Positions 43,679 to 63,086 of a DNA stretch of 64,000 nt are shown one piece after another. The notes beneath the pieces are model-generated. The model worked only from the letters and a program-made list of their open reading frames with translations. It was not told where the DNA came from and did no database searches. This stretch comes from Gammaproteobacteria bacterium HGW-Gammaproteobacteria-1 (GTDB lineage: Bacteria; Pseudomonadota; Gammaproteobacteria; Thiohalomonadales; Thiohalomonadaceae). The first letter of the stretch is position 1, and each line of letters starts with the position of its first letter. The translations under genes were made by a program, and so were the position numbers. Where the stretch lies: the NCBI GenBank assembly GCA_002840095.1, contig PGZL01000008.1, positions 62,001 to 126,000 on the forward strand, given 5' to 3'.

Positions 43679-43697
43679 TGAAATACTCCATCAAGAA

Positions 43698-43767
43698 CGA
43701 GCGCCGTTGTTACAGAACCGCCCCCTGAGCCTGACGGGTTTTACCCGCTGCAGCGCTCCTCAGGGGA
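43698..43767 (-). promoter_or_regulatory. S-adenosylhomocysteine (SAH) riboswitch
   Basis: On the minus strand the leader of ahcY reads CCCTGAGGAGCGCTGCAGCG, then GGGTAAAACCCGTCAGGCTCAGGG in two halves, then CAACGGCGCTCG. GAGGAGCGCTGC, CAGGCTC and CAACGGCGCTC are the conserved parts of the SAH riboswitch; GAGCGC... pairs with GCGCTC to close the pseudoknot-like fold. It sits 20 bases before the ahcY start, the usual place, and should turn ahcY on when SAH is high. Confidence 0.92.
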
Positions 43768-56167: not shown

Positions 56168-59100
56168 ATGTCACAGTCATCAATTCCTCAACAGATAAGC
56201 GAGACACGAGCATCAGCTCAACCCGAAGAGGCAGCATCGGCCAAGAAACCCGGTGGTGGTACAGCTGCTGGTGGCGGCATTAATTTTCAGGCAGCGGTGA
56301 CCGCGATCGCAGGTGCTTACCTCTTGCGTGGTATACCGCTCGGCTGGTTCCCGGTGGGTGATGTGCCCGTGGCTGTCTGGGCGGAGAGCGAAGGCGCTGG
56401 TGATGACGTGCGTCTTGAGCTCTCATCCGGCATCGCGGTCGAGATCCAGGCGAAAAAAGGTCTTACTCGTGGCCTGAAACTGTGGGAGGCGCTCGAAGCC
56501 CTAATCACGGCTGTCAGCGACGGCCGCCTCGAATACGGAACACTGGCGGTTGCACCGGATTCAAGTCGCACGATCCGCGAAGACCTGGCCAAGGATCTCG
56601 AACGACTCGGCCAAGGCCGACATGATCATCTCGCAGACATTGGAGACGAGCTGCATCGCCGACTCCGGGACATCGGCGGCAAATGGGAGCAGGCGTGTCA
56701 GCGGGTCGGCATCCGTGTCGTCCATGCGCTCAAGTTGGACGATGCGGACATAAGGGTAGCTAAGGAATCGTTGCGATGGGTGTGCGCCGACGAAGCCCAG
56801 GCCGACGCCGCTTGGAACGCGCTCTATCGTGACGCGGTAGCGCTTATCGAGCACCGCGGGCGCTGGACCATGGTCCATCTGCTCAGGCTGTTCCAGCGGG
56901 AAGGCATCGTGATCCGCGACGCCGATTTTCCTGCCGCGATCGCGACGAAGCTCGCGGACTGGGTGCGTTCGACACGCGACAGCTTCACGCTGCCGGCGAC
57001 GCGCAAGCGTCTCCCGCTCAGCGCACTGCTCGAAATGCGTGCGGTCGGAACGGTGATCGAGCAACCGGACGCCGAGGATGCAGCGGCTGCGCTCGCACGC
57101 TATCACGATGCGGCGGGTGCACTCGACCGTGATGCCCCGATTTACGACGCCGAATGGACAGGCCGGTTTAGGCGCCATGCGGTCGTTGTGGCAGGGCCGG
57201 GACTTGGAAAGTCGACCTTAATGACCTTGCTCGCCAGTAGCTATGCCACCGATGGATTCCAAGTGTTGAGTGCAAAACTCAAGCCGATCGCCGCGGCAAT
57301 GGAACGAGGAGCCAGTTTCGACTATGCGCTGCGCAGCCAGGCACTGGACGGCTCAGGTATCACTCCCGATCGCCTCGATAGCGTGAAACTAGAGGGCTTC
57401 GTCGTACTCGCGGATGGTCTCGACGAATGCGGTAGCGGCCACGATGCAGTTGCGCGTGCGCTTTACGCCTTTGCATCCGGCCATCCGTCCGCCCGCATCG
57501 TTGTCACGACGCGTCCGATCGGATACACAACTTCCGCACTGGCGGACTGGAAGCACTACCGGCTGTTGCCGCCTGACAAAGACCATGGCGCGGTGAATCT
57601 GGCAAAGCTACTAAGTGCCCTAGAGGGCTCCGACAGCACCACTGAGGACGCGCTCCAAGTTGCTAAGCGTGAGCTTGCCGCATCAAGAGCGGCAGAGACA
57701 ATCAGCACCAGCCCGCATCTTCTGGGTATGGCGGCTGCACTCATATCGTCCAGAGGAAGGCTCCCGAATACACGGCCTCGGCTTTATGCCGAGCTTATCG
57801 GCCTCTTCGAGACCACCGGCGGGACGGCAGCGTCATGCCCAGTCCCTGCGTCCATCGCGGAATATGTCCTGAATGGGCTGGGCTGGCTGCTGATGCACGA
57901 CTCGTTGGCATCGTCCGATGTGCTGACCGATCGCTGTTCCGGGCTGCTCGCCGAGCCGATGGGTCGTACACCGATGGCCGTGCTTGAGGTGGTGGAGCCG
58001 GCGCTGCGCTATTGGGAGCAGCTCGGGATCATCGAGCTTCTCCATCACGACGGCATCGCCTACTGGACTTTCATCCACAAGACCTTCACCGAGTTCACGG
58101 CCGCGCGTCACCTCAAGGCGTTATCCGCCGAGCAGCGTGCGATCGAGCTCGATCGACTCGTCGACCAGCCCGATTGGCACGAGGTCATCGCGTTCGCAGG
58201 CGGTCTTGGTCTCGGTCACGAGATCGCACGCCTGCTCGTGGACAGGCGCATAGTTGGTCATCCGGGTCAGATGGAACGGGCGCTCGCGCTCGCGGCTGAC
58301 AAGGATGCCGAAATGAACGACGACGAGGTCCGACAGCTCGCCAAACTCGCCTTTGAAGCTGTGGAGACTGACGGCGGGGACCGGTTTAGCATCGGCCTGG
58401 CGCTCGCCGAATTGGCCGAGGCCCATCCGGAGATCATCGGATCAATCGCCGCCGCTCACGTCCATGACGAGCGTAGATCGGTCCAGCTCGTGGCCTGGGC
58501 ATGCGTGGTCGCGGCCGAGCCCAAGGGTTATACAGGCGTTGAGTTGGCCCAGGTGCTGAGCACACTCCTACCCACCATTAGCAGGGCCGTTAGCGCATCG
58601 CTGCTTGGCGGCATGCGCCTCGGTGGCAAGAAGGACCGCGTTCTGATCGAACGCATCGCGCTGGCAGCACTGGCCGCGCAGCCGGATACAGACCTCAAGG
58701 CCTTTGCGGAGATGCAGCTCGACCATGAGGCTCTGAGCACATGGGGGTTCCAACGCAAGGTCACGGTGCTGCTGCGCGCGCGTGGTGTCACCGAAGAAGT
58801 CGTACCTTCCTGGATGCGCTCTTCAGCATCTTCGGCGTTCGCGTTGCTGTACCCGCACGACGAATGGCGCCGCGCGTCTGCGAAAGCCATGCGCGCGCTG
58901 GCCGAGGCTGTTGTTATCGAGCGCAGGGTGACGTGCGGTACAAGTCCCAAGTCGCAGCGGTTCCCGCAGTTCGGCGCACTGGTCGCTCTGACGGGATTTA
59001 ACGAAGTACCGGCGTACGACGTCCATCAATGGGAAAAACCCTATGACGTGGCGGTCGTGCGCGTCGTCGTGCAGGCAATAGTGCATGCATCGGCGATCGA

Positions 59101-60139
59101 TCCGCAGGCGCTGAGCGCAGAGGCGGCTGCAGTCGTGCGTCGCGCCGATGACGATGACCGGTTAGATCTATTCGATTTCCCTCATGTCGATGTTCCCGAG
59201 CCTGATTGGAGCAAGGCTGCGGCGCTGATAGCCGACCACGTCACGCTTGTGGCGGCGATGAACCACGGCTCGGACTGGATGGCGTATGTTGGGGGGAATA
59301 TTCTCGCGGCGTCTAGTGCGACCCAAGAACAGTTCCGCTCGCTGCTCGATGATGCCGCGGGGAAGTCACTCTGGATGGCAGTGGAGGTGGTACGGCAGCA
59401 GCAGCCGACTGACGTCGCCAATGCGCTGATACTCGATCGACTTGCAGGATATTTGACGGATGGCTCCGAACATCTGTTCAAGGGGCTTGAGAAAGGGAGA
59501 GTTAAACAATCGCCAGCACTTCACGAGGCGATTAGGCGAGGCCTCAATAGCCCGTCCCCCACAATCGCGGCCGCGGCAGCGAGCTTCGCCAAAGATCTGG
59601 CTGAACGCGGACAACCGCTGGAGCTCAAGATGATCGTTGACGCCTATGACCACTGGCTGGTCCATGAGCCCAAGCAGAAGGGCAGCATCATCCCGACAAG
59701 CCCGCGCGAGCCATTGCTGAAGCTGCTGATCTCGCAGGACGCGCTCGACGATGACCGACTACTCGCCACGCTGTCGGATACCCGATCGGATGTTCGCAAC
59801 GCTGGTGAGATGCGAATGCACGACGCAATCGCCACGTCGGATTCTCTCAAGAATGTCGTTATCGAGCGTATAAAGTCGCGGAGTCTGCCGCCAGCAATCG
59901 CGGCCAGCGTGTTGCGACGTGAGACGCCGCTGTTGGATGAGCAGGTCCGTGCTCTCGAAACTCTGTTGTGTGAACAAGACCCGAAATGGCGTCGTGCAGG
60001 TGTCGAACTGCTGCGGCGATGCTACCTGGGCGCCGACCAGATCGCCGAATATGGTGCGAAGCTTTCTGCGGATGACGAGGATGAAATACGTCGAGCCGTC
60101 GAACAACGTCTAGCGGCCTCAACTGCGACATCGCCCTAG
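56168..60139 (+). CDS. Nuclease-NACHT STAND NTPase, putative anti-phage protein
   Basis: A 1323-residue cytoplasmic protein. The N-terminal ~240 residues resemble a PD-(D/E)xK nuclease: GGINFQAAVTAIAGAYLLRG, then D79/D80 and VEIQAKKG (E92, K96). A NACHT NTPase follows: Walker A AGPGLGKST (about 342-350), Walker B VVLADGLDE (about 410-418), sensor ARIVVTTRP (about 440-448), and FIHKTFTEFTAARHL (about 637) as the usual winged-helix-end motif. The last ~650 residues are helical, HEAT-like. This layout matches bacterial NACHT and Avs defence proteins, in which the C-terminus senses a phage product and the nuclease kills the cell or the phage. It is a single gene without an obvious partner. Confidence 0.88.
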   Translation: MSQSSIPQQISETRASAQPEEAASAKKPGGGTAAGGGINFQAAVTAIAGAYLLRGIPLGWFPVGDVPVAVWAESEGAGDDVRLELSSGIAVEIQAKKGLTRGLKLWEALEALITAVSDGRLEYGTLAVAPDSSRTIREDLAKDLERLGQGRHDHLADIGDELHRRLRDIGGKWEQACQRVGIRVVHALKLDDADIRVAKESLRWVCADEAQADAAWNALYRDAVALIEHRGRWTMVHLLRLFQREGIVIRDADFPAAIATKLADWVRSTRDSFTLPATRKRLPLSALLEMRAVGTVIEQPDAEDAAAALARYHDAAGALDRDAPIYDAEWTGRFRRHAVVVAGPGLGKSTLMTLLASSYATDGFQVLSAKLKPIAAAMERGASFDYALRSQALDGSGITPDRLDSVKLEGFVVLADGLDECGSGHDAVARALYAFASGHPSARIVVTTRPIGYTTSALADWKHYRLLPPDKDHGAVNLAKLLSALEGSDSTTEDALQVAKRELAASRAAETISTSPHLLGMAAALISSRGRLPNTRPRLYAELIGLFETTGGTAASCPVPASIAEYVLNGLGWLLMHDSLASSDVLTDRCSGLLAEPMGRTPMAVLEVVEPALRYWEQLGIIELLHHDGIAYWTFIHKTFTEFTAARHLKALSAEQRAIELDRLVDQPDWHEVIAFAGGLGLGHEIARLLVDRRIVGHPGQMERALALAADKDAEMNDDEVRQLAKLAFEAVETDGGDRFSIGLALAELAEAHPEIIGSIAAAHVHDERRSVQLVAWACVVAAEPKGYTGVELAQVLSTLLPTISRAVSASLLGGMRLGGKKDRVLIERIALAALAAQPDTDLKAFAEMQLDHEALSTWGFQRKVTVLLRARGVTEEVVPSWMRSSASSAFALLYPHDEWRRASAKAMRALAEAVVIERRVTCGTSPKSQRFPQFGALVALTGFNEVPAYDVHQWEKPYDVAVVRVVVQAIVHASAIDPQALSAEAAAVVRRADDDDRLDLFDFPHVDVPEPDWSKAAALIADHVTLVAAMNHGSDWMAYVGGNILAASSATQEQFRSLLDDAAGKSLWMAVEVVRQQQPTDVANALILDRLAGYLTDGSEHLFKGLEKGRVKQSPALHEAIRRGLNSPSPTIAAAAASFAKDLAERGQPLELKMIVDAYDHWLVHEPKQKGSIIPTSPREPLLKLLISQDALDDDRLLATLSDTRSDVRNAGEMRMHDAIATSDSLKNVVIERIKSRSLPPAIAASVLRRETPLLDEQVRALETLLCEQDPKWRRAGVELLRRCYLGADQIAEYGAKLSADDEDEIRRAVEQRLAASTATSP

Positions 60140-60519: not shown

Positions 60520-60717
60520 CTACCTAAGCAGGTCACCAACATCGCACTTGAGAGATTTGGCGATCTGGTCGAGGGTCTTGATAGTAGTATTCTGCGCGCC
60601 GTTTTCCAGGCGGGTAAGGGTAGGCCTGCTGATCCCCAGCTTGCGGGCGAACTGTTCCTGTGTCAGGTCTCCCCTGCGGTTCCGCAGGTTCTTCGCTAAG
60701 GTGGCGGCAAGGCTCAT
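60520..60717 (-). CDS. Xre/Cro-type transcriptional regulator
   Basis: A 65-residue protein that is essentially one helix-turn-helix domain: LTQEQFARKLGISRPTLTRL followed by ENGAQNTTIKTLDQIAKSL. Such minimal regulators occur in phages and toxin-antitoxin modules. The palindrome TATGTGAACATA at 60724-60735, a few bases upstream of the start codon, may be its own operator. Its leader carries a 10-base match to a C4-like antisense RNA encoded just upstream. Confidence 0.88.
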   Translation of the reverse strand: MSLAATLAKNLRNRRGDLTQEQFARKLGISRPTLTRLENGAQNTTIKTLDQIAKSLKCDVGDLLR

Positions 60718-60905
60718 GTTCTTATGTGAACATAGTGGCTTGGAAAGGAATTGGGGTTAGAACACAGTTTCCTAACCAGTCGGCTGATTTTTAATGGGCG
60801 CTCGAACACCGCGCAGATTATTGCCGAACAAAGGAAGGAACAGGTTAAGGAAAAGAAGAAATGAACGCTTGACATCTACTGTCTGTTCATACACCTTACG
60901 TCATT

Positions 60906-60985
60906 AAGAAAAAGCGCCACCCGGCGGTGCTGTAACACCAACCGGGCGGCTAACCCCAAGACTGCATCACCAGACCTTGGGGCTG
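60906..60985 (-). ncRNA. C4-like antisense RNA
   Basis: On the minus strand two stem-loops follow each other: CCCCAAG...CTTGGGG, then GCCGCCCGG-TT-GGTG-TTACAG-CACC-GCCGGGTGGC (in pieces), ending GCTTTTTCTT like a terminator. This two-hairpin shape and wording resemble C4 antisense RNAs of phages P1/P7 and many genomes. The linker TTGGGGTTAG is perfectly complementary to CTAACCCCAA in the leader of the downstream xre gene (plus 60751-60760), about 35 bases before its start codon. C4 RNAs silence the downstream gene in just this manner. The C4 label is from memory of the motif. Confidence 0.68.
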
Positions 60986-60991
60986 CGCGAG

Positions 60992-61000
60992 AGTATATCA
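60992..61000 (-). promoter_or_regulatory. Extended -10 promoter for the C4-like RNA
   Basis: TGATATACT on the minus strand combines a TGn extension with TATACT. Transcription would start about 60985, at the foot of the first stem. No clear -35 box. Confidence 0.5.
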
Positions 61001-61271
61001 CCGGGTCCGGCCCCAGCTGGATCCCGGCTCGTCCCACAATGAGCCAGGAGGGCTTTATGGACGGGACCGTCGATCGTAGTGGAATTCTTATTGATCCCCT
61101 TTCCCCATGGGAGAGGGAATACACCGGAGGACGGGCGCATGCCCAGGGCCGCAGCCCGCGGTCCACAGTCCCCAAACCCCCGCCACCACCCCATTCTCCG
61201 CCATGCCGGGCTGCCCGTACGGGGCTTGGCGCCTGTAGATTACCCGCCTTCTTTCGTCGTTGACTGCCGCC
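61001..61271. other. Gap between the C4-like RNA and the second xre gene
   Basis: Holds a partial CCCTTTCCCCATGGGAGAGGG repeat at 61095-61119 (related to the one at 51791) and GC-rich sequence. No convincing gene. Confidence 0.45.
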
Positions 61272-61556
61272 ATGGCCAGAGGAGTGGCACGGAGGTTGTT
61301 GGCGCAGAACGTCCGCGTTCTGCGGTTGATGCGGGGATGGTCACAGGAGGTGTTGGCCGAGGCGGCGGAGTTGGACCGTTCCTATGTCGGTGACATCGAA
61401 CGGGCCCGGCGCAACGTCAGCCTGGATAGTCTGGAACGGTTGGCAAGCGCCTTCGGGATGGTGGTACCGGACTTGTTCCGCGAGCCCGATCCCGCCGAAC
61501 TGGGGGCGCAGCTGCTGCGTACGATATCGAGCGAAATAGTCAGGGAAAAGGACTGA
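61272..61556 (+). CDS. Xre-family transcriptional regulator
   Basis: A 94-residue HTH protein. RVLRLMRGWSQEVLAEAAEL, then DRSYVGDIERARRNVSLDSL and ERLASAFGM form a Cro/C1 domain similar to controller proteins of restriction-modification systems and to general Xre regulators. No restriction or methylase gene is adjacent. The ATG at 61272 is preferred; a TTG lies 12 bases upstream. Confidence 0.85.
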   Translation: MARGVARRLLAQNVRVLRLMRGWSQEVLAEAAELDRSYVGDIERARRNVSLDSLERLASAFGMVVPDLFREPDPAELGAQLLRTISSEIVREKD

Positions 61557-62011
61557 CATGGAACTCGTCAAAATCGGACAGGAGGATACTGGGTAAGCGG
61601 TTCGCTTGGGAGGGCCAAGGTTGCCCTCCCAAGCTCACCATGGTATAGAAACCGCCACCCAAGGACGAAATCATTCCCCCGTAACAAGGAGACGTTACGT
61701 GTCCCCAGTTCCTGCGCACCACATTCACCTGATCTGCACCACTGCCGGCACGGCATGTCCCTTGCGCGCCTTTCATGACACCGGGCTCATCTGGCAGTTG
61801 CCCCAGTTTCAAGCCGTCGCCAGCATAGCCACTGTCGCCTCGATGCCTGGCCAGCAGGATCAACTTCATCTCACCGGCCAGAAAGAGGACGGAGGAATTG
61901 AATTTTGATCAATGCCCAACGAGTCCCTAATGCTGAAGGCTGGTTTGTATCGGTTTTACACTTTAACTAAATCTGTAGCGTGTTTTAAATCAAAGTTAAG
62001 GAGGAATGGCT
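61557..62011. other. 455-base gap with a perfect hairpin
   Basis: TTGGGAGGGC-CAAGGTT-GCCCTCCCAA at 61606-61632 has perfect 10-base arms without a T-run. The rest shows no coding signal I trust. AAGGAGG at its right end is the ribosome site of the next gene. Confidence 0.55.
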
Positions 62012-62548
62012 ATGGCGTGGGAATTTTTATACAGCGTGCGGCGTGAATTTCAGGGGGACAGCAATTGGGGCGATATGTACATGAAGTCCGCCGACAACAA
62101 GGCGTGGGAGTGGCTGTGTTACACCTATGAGCTGCCGTGGAAGGCTGATGCCGCCGGCAAGAGCATTAACAAGAAGAGCCGCGTGGAGATGGGTGTCTAT
62201 GAACTCCGCGTACGAACGGATGGAAAATCCCGTGATCAGGGTGGTAAAGGCTGGCGCTTGGAATTGCGAAACACCAAACACCGAGATAACGTTCAAATCC
62301 ACCGGGCGGCGCCCAGCATGTATATCGAAGGCTGCATCCTCCCCGTGCATTTCAACACGTTTTCGGCTTCCACAATACGAAAAGGTGATCGCTTGATCCG
62401 GTCGAAATCCATTGAACTTATGGACAAGATACAATCGCGTTGGTCGACGCTTTTGAACAGTGGCACGGTGACAGGTGCCCCGACGCTGTGCATCGCCGAG
62501 ACCCTACCTGCCGAGTTGTCGACCAACCGGAGTCATGCCCATGCGTAA
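62012..62548 (+). CDS. DUF5675-like protein
   Basis: A 178-residue soluble protein. GVYELRVRTDG, GWRLELRN, DNVQIHRAAPSMYIEGCILP match my recollection of the DUF5675 domain, found in phage-related and secreted contexts with unknown activity. The ATG at 62012 is preferred because AGGAGG lies 7 bases upstream; the ATG at 62006 is too close. It overlaps the next gene by 8 bases, so an effector/partner or enzyme/inhibitor pair is possible. Lower GC than the core genes. Confidence 0.72.
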   Translation: MAWEFLYSVRREFQGDSNWGDMYMKSADNKAWEWLCYTYELPWKADAAGKSINKKSRVEMGVYELRVRTDGKSRDQGGKGWRLELRNTKHRDNVQIHRAAPSMYIEGCILPVHFNTFSASTIRKGDRLIRSKSIELMDKIQSRWSTLLNSGTVTGAPTLCIAETLPAELSTNRSHAHA

Positions 62549-63086
62549 ATCAAAATACTTGTACCTGCCGTGGTTTGTGTTGTCACTGCTCACGTCTTCC
62601 CTTGCCTTCGGTGGGGAACCTCTTCCGAACAATCGGTATGAGGACGGCATCACGTTGACGATTACGAGCAAGCCATTTGATCCCAAAGCACATGCCATTA
62701 AAAAATGTGAATATGCGATTTGTGTCATTGATGGTCGATTCATTTATGGGGGCAATGGGGATATTCCGAAAGAGGAGGTGGCAAGCCTTGTGTTCGAACA
62801 AAACGGCAAAACGATTAAACTAGATGTCTCCTCAATGTATGACACGGGCGTGAACAACGCAAATATCAAACAACACATATCTGTTACCAAATGGGGTAGG
62901 AGTTCTTATCAGCTGGTAGGTTACTTTAGCGATGGCGACGATACCTATATCGGCAGATGGCTCGTTTCTCCAGATGGCGCTATACGACATTATCTAGGTG
63001 ATTACGAAACGCTCGTCAGTTTGACGACCAAAGTGCAACGAGACTATGGGCTGCCCAGTACGACCGGCCCTGACAGTAACCAATAA
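62541..63086 (+). CDS. Exported unknown protein, partner of the DUF5675 gene
   Basis: A 181-residue protein with a signal peptide (LPWFVLSLLTSSLAFG, cleavage near GGEP). The mature part is beta-rich with CEYAICVIDGRF (two Cys likely disulphide-bonded). No family recognised. It starts 8 bases before the end of the DUF5675 gene; GGAG lies 8 bases before the ATG at 62541. A periplasmic immunity or binding role is conceivable from the arrangement alone. Confidence 0.72.
   Translation: MRKSKYLYLPWFVLSLLTSSLAFGGEPLPNNRYEDGITLTITSKPFDPKAHAIKKCEYAICVIDGRFIYGGNGDIPKEEVASLVFEQNGKTIKLDVSSMYDTGVNNANIKQHISVTKWGRSSYQLVGYFSDGDDTYIGRWLVSPDGAIRHYLGDYETLVSLTTKVQRDYGLPSTTGPDSNQ

Follow-up and report, generated by a model that had tools for sequence, protein, structure and literature searches.

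On the minus strand of the window, the whole 64,000-nucleotide stretch analysed here, positions 60985-60905 very probably encode a small structured antisense RNA. The explanation that accounts best for the evidence as a whole, and in which we have considerable confidence, is that this is a SymR-family cis-antisense RNA acting on a leader-xre mRNA of the opposite strand, with locus specificity set by its two apical loops. In the proposed mechanism, the RNA made from the minus strand would cover a plus-strand mRNA over the first ~80 nt of its leader; this mRNA would begin just beyond the RNA 3' end and encode a short leader peptide and a control-protein-like Xre regulator, the latter translationally coupled to the leader ORF. 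The two apical loops would probably make the first contact, by kissing their complementary sites in the sense leader, and the pairing would lower translation of the leader ORF and, through it, that of xre. As the loops differ between paralogous copies, each RNA would act on its own locus only. SOS (LexA) control of the sense promoter is a further possibility. Transcription of both strands, repression by the RNA, the kissing-loop start and the coupling are what we infer from the sequence. The features concerned are collected in Table 1.

Table 1. Features of the antisense RNA locus and its surroundings (window coordinates).
Feature	Position	Strand	Basis or remarks
Candidate SymR-family antisense RNA, ~80 nt	60905..60985	minus	Fold, ten near-identical copies, covariance models; 5' end placed from the -10 box
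Extended -10 box TGATATACT of the antisense RNA	60992..61000	minus	Alignments
Apical loop 1 (GTGATG), hypervariable between copies	60965..60970	minus	Pairwise comparison
Apical loop 2 (TTACAG), hypervariable between copies	60930..60935	minus	Pairwise comparison
T-tail CTTTTTCTT after hairpin 2, predicted intrinsic terminator of the RNA	60906..60914	minus	Sequence and alignment
Predicted promoter of the sense mRNA (TTGACA, 15 bp, TACACC)	60869..60895	plus	Kept in all ten copies, flanks not
LexA-like box CTGTctgttcatACAC inside the sense promoter	60879..60894	plus	7/8 core positions
Putative 5' untranslated leader of the sense mRNA	60903..61056	plus	Layout of ten copies and two sister copies; predicted transcript
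Small hairpin GAGCC-AGGAG-GGCTT with the Shine-Dalgarno sequence in its loop, followed by the leader ORF ATG	61041..61059	plus	Sequence; minimum-energy fold
Leader ORF, 68 aa, ending at the xre start	61057..61263	plus	Present in all ten copies
xre of restriction control-protein type, putative regulated gene	61260..61556	plus	TTG 61260 (overlaps the leader stop) or ATG 61272
xre gene taken as the target in the preliminary description; outside the repeat	60520..60717	minus	HTH_3 5.9e-15

The region of the RNA folds into two hairpins separated by a single A (-48.7 kcal/mol, z = -5.3), and none of 200 shuffled sequences folded as well. The minus-strand element of about 80 nt with two stem-loops, an extended -10 box and a T-tail, as given in the preliminary description, is borne out by these data; the TATACT of the -10 box is unchanged in the alignments of ten copies and both sister-species copies. 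By genome search, ten copies of the RNA were found on eight contigs of the window's own genome (G000), 91-97% identical to the window RNA (itself 100%), each within a longer repeat, 80-90% identical, to which the opposite-strand xre also belongs. Within the genus, the RNA is present only in the window species and in one sister species (G004, copies L023 and L025). A DNA search of the 700-bp unit against plasmids and phages returned nothing, and a strict RNA pattern run across genome contigs was found in one MAG only, UBA3588. The genes downstream on the RNA strand are unrelated between copies. Between the sense promoter and these variable neighbour genes, copies c2-c8 of G000 carry a conserved, apparently non-coding block at about +150 to +450 from the RNA start. 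The idea that it represents a shared N-terminus of the variable neighbours was rejected, because the reading frames are broken in most copies.

The best Rfam match of the RNA is SymR (RF01809), at 37.5 bits and E = 2e-5 in the window, and the other copies and the sister species score 35.6-39.4 bits with the same model. Since the Rfam gathering score for SymR is 61 bits, the window RNA is not a member by Rfam's own rule. Judged by models built from its own sequences, which recognise the authentic symR, the RNA is homologous to SymR. A first covariance model, for which the ten copies and the two sister copies, all of them linked to xre, were the sole input, finds the annotated symR of E. coli K-12 (28.2 bits, E = 1.5e-7) and, across 369 genomes of the class, five further loci; at one of these the RNA overlies a SymE start codon (PF08845, 50.7 bits). 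A second model, built from 17 sequences, scores the annotated symR at 47 bits (E = 9e-14). With E <= 0.01, it matches in 38 of 398 Pseudomonadota genomes, the window's own included, and in 34 of 213 genera; 31 genomes of this phylum sample have matches at E < 1e-4, and a few of the weakest matches are expected by chance. Matches were also found in 20 of 29 phage or prophage contigs, which had been selected by pattern. The Rfam cut-off for SymR was reached by none of the 20 phylum-sample loci scanned, the best of them scoring 57 against the required 61 bits.

The two-hairpin structure is accompanied by extensive covariation. In an alignment of 59 sequences, which was fitted to the model and so favours pairing, 93.6% of cells are paired, 23 of the 26 base pairs have changed on both sides, and covariation scores 0.674, as compared with 0.189 for shuffled alignments and at most 0.121 for slid structures. 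In the 17-sequence set, 97.3% of cells are paired and 16 of the 26 pairs show changes on both sides.

SymR is an established antisense RNA that represses translation in cis (Kawano et al., 2007; PMC1891008). The genes that lie opposite its relatives are diverse. At 46 of the 49 other loci, a start codon of the opposite strand falls within the RNA; it is usually ATGGCT, preceded by a Shine-Dalgarno sequence. One of the three exceptions, L105, is not a real one: its match lies near a contig end and the cut was misplaced. Among 29 distinct opposite-strand proteins are six SymE, one ArdA and one with an HNH domain, and most are of unknown kind. The ArdA antirestriction gene is on a phage contig, with the SymR-like RNA (L052, 8094-8180) over its start. 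In a genome of another genus (G490), ten copies of a SymR-like RNA (L110-L119) lie ahead of short ORFs; in those copies that were read further, CsrA comes next, with one PF02599 match at 82 bits and another copy that reads as CsrA-like. Three copies in this genome are without the usual start codon and stand ahead of an ORF that has no Pfam match. SymR has been treated as the antisense RNA of a single SOS toxin gene in enterobacteria. In the open-access literature searched, it is described with SymE only; this is absence from one library and does not amount to proof.

The opposite strand of the ten copies has a common layout. A predicted promoter faces xre from just beyond the RNA 3' end, and the first ~80 nt of the predicted sense leader are the complement of the antisense RNA. 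In the ten copies and the two sister copies, the RNA lies opposite the predicted leader of the leader ORF-xre mRNA, so that this layout of promoter, leader, ORF and xre makes the RNA antisense to the first ~80 nt of that mRNA, if the mRNA is made as predicted. The leader ORF is intact in 10/10 copies (68-84 codons) and ends no more than ~12 nt from the xre start, with an ATGA overlap in seven; its dN/dS of 0.70 indicates that it is weakly constrained as a protein. The opposite-strand xre is likewise intact in 10/10 copies, with a dN/dS of 0.32. It matches HTH_3 (3.4e-12) and the PADLOC model Control_protein (PDLC03665, 8.1e-19), and not SymE_toxin (PF08845). A pair of restriction and methylase genes was not noticed among the ORFs near the ten copies, some of whose neighbours were searched. 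In the sister species, L023 has a different leader ORF, which also ends a few bases before xre, and TAAGC/GCTTA at the place of the Shine-Dalgarno hairpin. L025 has no leader ORF, and its Shine-Dalgarno sequence serves xre directly. The core of the LexA-like box agrees at 7/8 positions in the G000 copies, at 8/8 in L025, which has a full CTGTN8ACAG at this site, and mostly at 4-6/8 elsewhere, most relatives being without such a box; the window genome's own lexA promoter carries CTGTATATAATCACAG.

The window copy departs from the other nine in its leader, where the GC-rich hairpin segment present in the others is missing. This segment, CGGCCC-GGGCCG-N10-CGGCCC, lies upstream of the Shine-Dalgarno sequence and is conserved in nine G000 copies, L023 and L025. 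It allows two alternative hairpins and is a possible RNA switch. The sense-leader element CGGCCCCG...CGGGGCCG-TTTTCG was considered as a conserved terminator; the sister species lacks its T-run, and the window copy lacks the element.

The locus shares with SymR/symE of E. coli the two-hairpin fold, the GTTAGC junction, the second hairpin GTGTTnnnGCAC, a LexA-like box in the sense promoter and a position opposite the 5' part of the target mRNA, which is a predicted one here. On the other hand, the target here is a control-protein-like Xre behind a leader ORF rather than the SymE toxin, ten paralogous copies with diverged loops are present, and the RNA covers a leader without the start codon. 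The ATGGCT of the relatives reads GGGGCT in the window subfamily, and therefore translation must start further on, the next start being 75-115 nt downstream. In this subfamily, the RNA covers neither the ribosome-binding site nor the start codon of the target. Because the leader ORF starts only about 75-115 nt past the GGGGCT, the route to repression would be less direct than for symE, and how an RNA no longer placed over the start codon would reduce xre translation is the weakest step of the proposal. Plasmid copy-number antisense RNAs have as their target a leader peptide to which the regulated gene is coupled, as in CopA/tap/repA of R1 and Inc/repY/repZ of ColIb-P9. In both of these systems, as proposed here, loops set specificity and a leader with a short ORF is coupled to the main gene. 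They differ from the present locus in that it is chromosomal, has an Xre gene, and is unrelated in sequence as far as tested; the Rfam scores for ctRNA_pGA1 and Plasmid_R1162 are weak only.

The apical loops are where the ten copies diverge. The two loops differ by 0.52 among copies versus 0.23 for the leader (p = 9e-5), while the difference is 0.02 per site in the RNA core, 0.01 in the stems and 0.21 at third codon positions of xre. Mean pairwise differences are 0.48 for loop 1 and 0.62 for loop 2 at variable positions, and no 7-column stretch of the leader in the ten copies is as variable as loop 1. Loop 1 is common to the copies in two pairs, and the combinations of loop 1 and loop 2 are unique in 10/10. 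Predicted loop duplexes have a mean energy of -13.8 kcal/mol for cognate and -2.4 for non-cognate partners, and 0/90 non-cognate pairs reach the cognate energy. The same hypervariable-loop pattern appears independently in the ten copies of G490, and in six near-identical phage SymE loci the positions of highest variability fall in the loops. Since the same DNA encodes sense and antisense RNA, the loops of a locus match without further constraint; what seems to be selected is that they are unlike those of other copies. Gene conversion that has homogenised the flanks could account for part of the excess loop divergence. Loop-loop initiation of pairing is established for plasmid antisense RNAs, and the loop variation, as analysed by these comparisons, would fit such an initiation. 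The pairing site is probably the two hypervariable loops, in place of the 10-nt linker named in the preliminary description. A target for the loops further downstream on the RNA strand was also considered and discarded, as complements of loop 1 are absent nearby.

That linker, TTGGGGTTAG, had been the core of a different proposal, in which a C4-like RNA represses the downstream xre of its own strand (60717-60520) by pairing of the 10-mer with the leader of that gene; we regard this as very improbable. The C4 immunity RNA of phages P1/P7 (RF01695) does have a length of ~80 nt, two hairpins and an antisense logic in common with the present RNA, which also ends in a T-tail, and the exact complement CTAACCCCAA (minus, 60760-60751) does sit in the leader of the 65-aa HTH gene, close to its start codon. 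However, the C4 model gave no match in the region up to E = 5, and over the whole genome none at the RNA, with weak matches elsewhere only. C4 lies upstream of its target on the same strand, whereas the target favoured here is on the opposite strand. All ten RNA copies of the genome have the 10-mer unchanged; it is mostly paired within a stem, and TTGGGGTT forms the 3' arm of hairpin 1, so that TTGGGGTTAG is not a free linker. Its complement is found at the window copy only and is absent downstream of the nine other RNA-bearing loci. Such a match has a chance level of about 1-2%: after dinucleotide shuffling, 0.8% of leaders contain a 10-nt complement, as do 2% of window stretches of the same length. 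Furthermore, the similarity between copies stops near 60867, and the same-strand xre is therefore not part of the repeated unit. The lack of a C4 match together with the absence of the complement at nine loci that keep the RNA is the outcome that the preliminary description itself had named as speaking against its reading. Its proposal of an Xre-type gene as the target very probably holds; the gene in question is the one on the opposite strand (61272-61556), not the same-strand xre downstream.

Two other readings leave the RNA without an antisense function at this locus. The hairpins might be a leader attenuator or terminator for the genes downstream on the RNA strand, acting in cis only, since a terminator closes the RNA and, in most copies, genes of the same strand follow downstream. 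This is improbable in view of the homology to an RNA of established antisense function (PMC1891008) and of the position of the relatives' RNAs over opposite-strand start codons; hypervariable loops are not expected of an attenuator, and the supposedly attenuated genes are unrelated from copy to copy. The loss of the ancestral ATGGCT start, the ten dispersed copies and the confinement to two species of the genus would suit a decayed or selfish repeat, in which the RNA would be left over from a SymR-type locus and have no present role. We consider this unlikely, though a little less so, because the RNA core is nearly invariant (0.02, against 0.23 in the flanks), the loops have diverged more than the flanks, the sense promoter is conserved, and xre is intact and constrained throughout.

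Taken beyond this locus, the SymR-family reading leads to a broader proposal, which we favour with some reserve: SymR would be the part known so far of a widespread superfamily of cis-antisense RNAs in Pseudomonadota and their phages, a portable cassette placed before unrelated genes (SymE, ArdA, HNH nucleases, CsrA paralogues, Xre control proteins), with loops selected to differ, so that at least ten copies can coexist as mutually insulated regulators. If this is true, the SymR scaffold is present in up to about a tenth of the sampled Pseudomonadota genomes and controls many kinds of genes, and the loci examined here escape the Rfam threshold. The specificity of loop-loop antisense pairing, which to our knowledge has until now been examined chiefly in plasmid incompatibility RNAs, could then be measured with a ready natural library, namely the sets of ten copies whose stems are almost the same and whose loops differ.

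The neighbours of the ten units include toxin and defence-like genes. Genes of Tse2-type ADP-ribosyltransferases adjoin two units (L013 and L014, copies c2 and c3), and an Mrr-type nuclease and a PDC-S06 candidate ATPase are each encoded at one copy. Beside the window copy, 56168-60139 (plus) encodes a 1323-aa NACHT/STAND-like protein with weak AAA/nSTAND matches, whose N-terminus matches the candidate defence family PDC-M54A (2.3e-7). A DUF5675 protein and then an overlapping, secreted-looking protein are encoded at 62006-63086 (plus), downstream of the control-protein-like xre; the two resemble an effector-immunity pair. Elsewhere in the window, a SAH riboswitch at 43692-43767 (minus, 67.1 bits) is the only Rfam match above its curated score.
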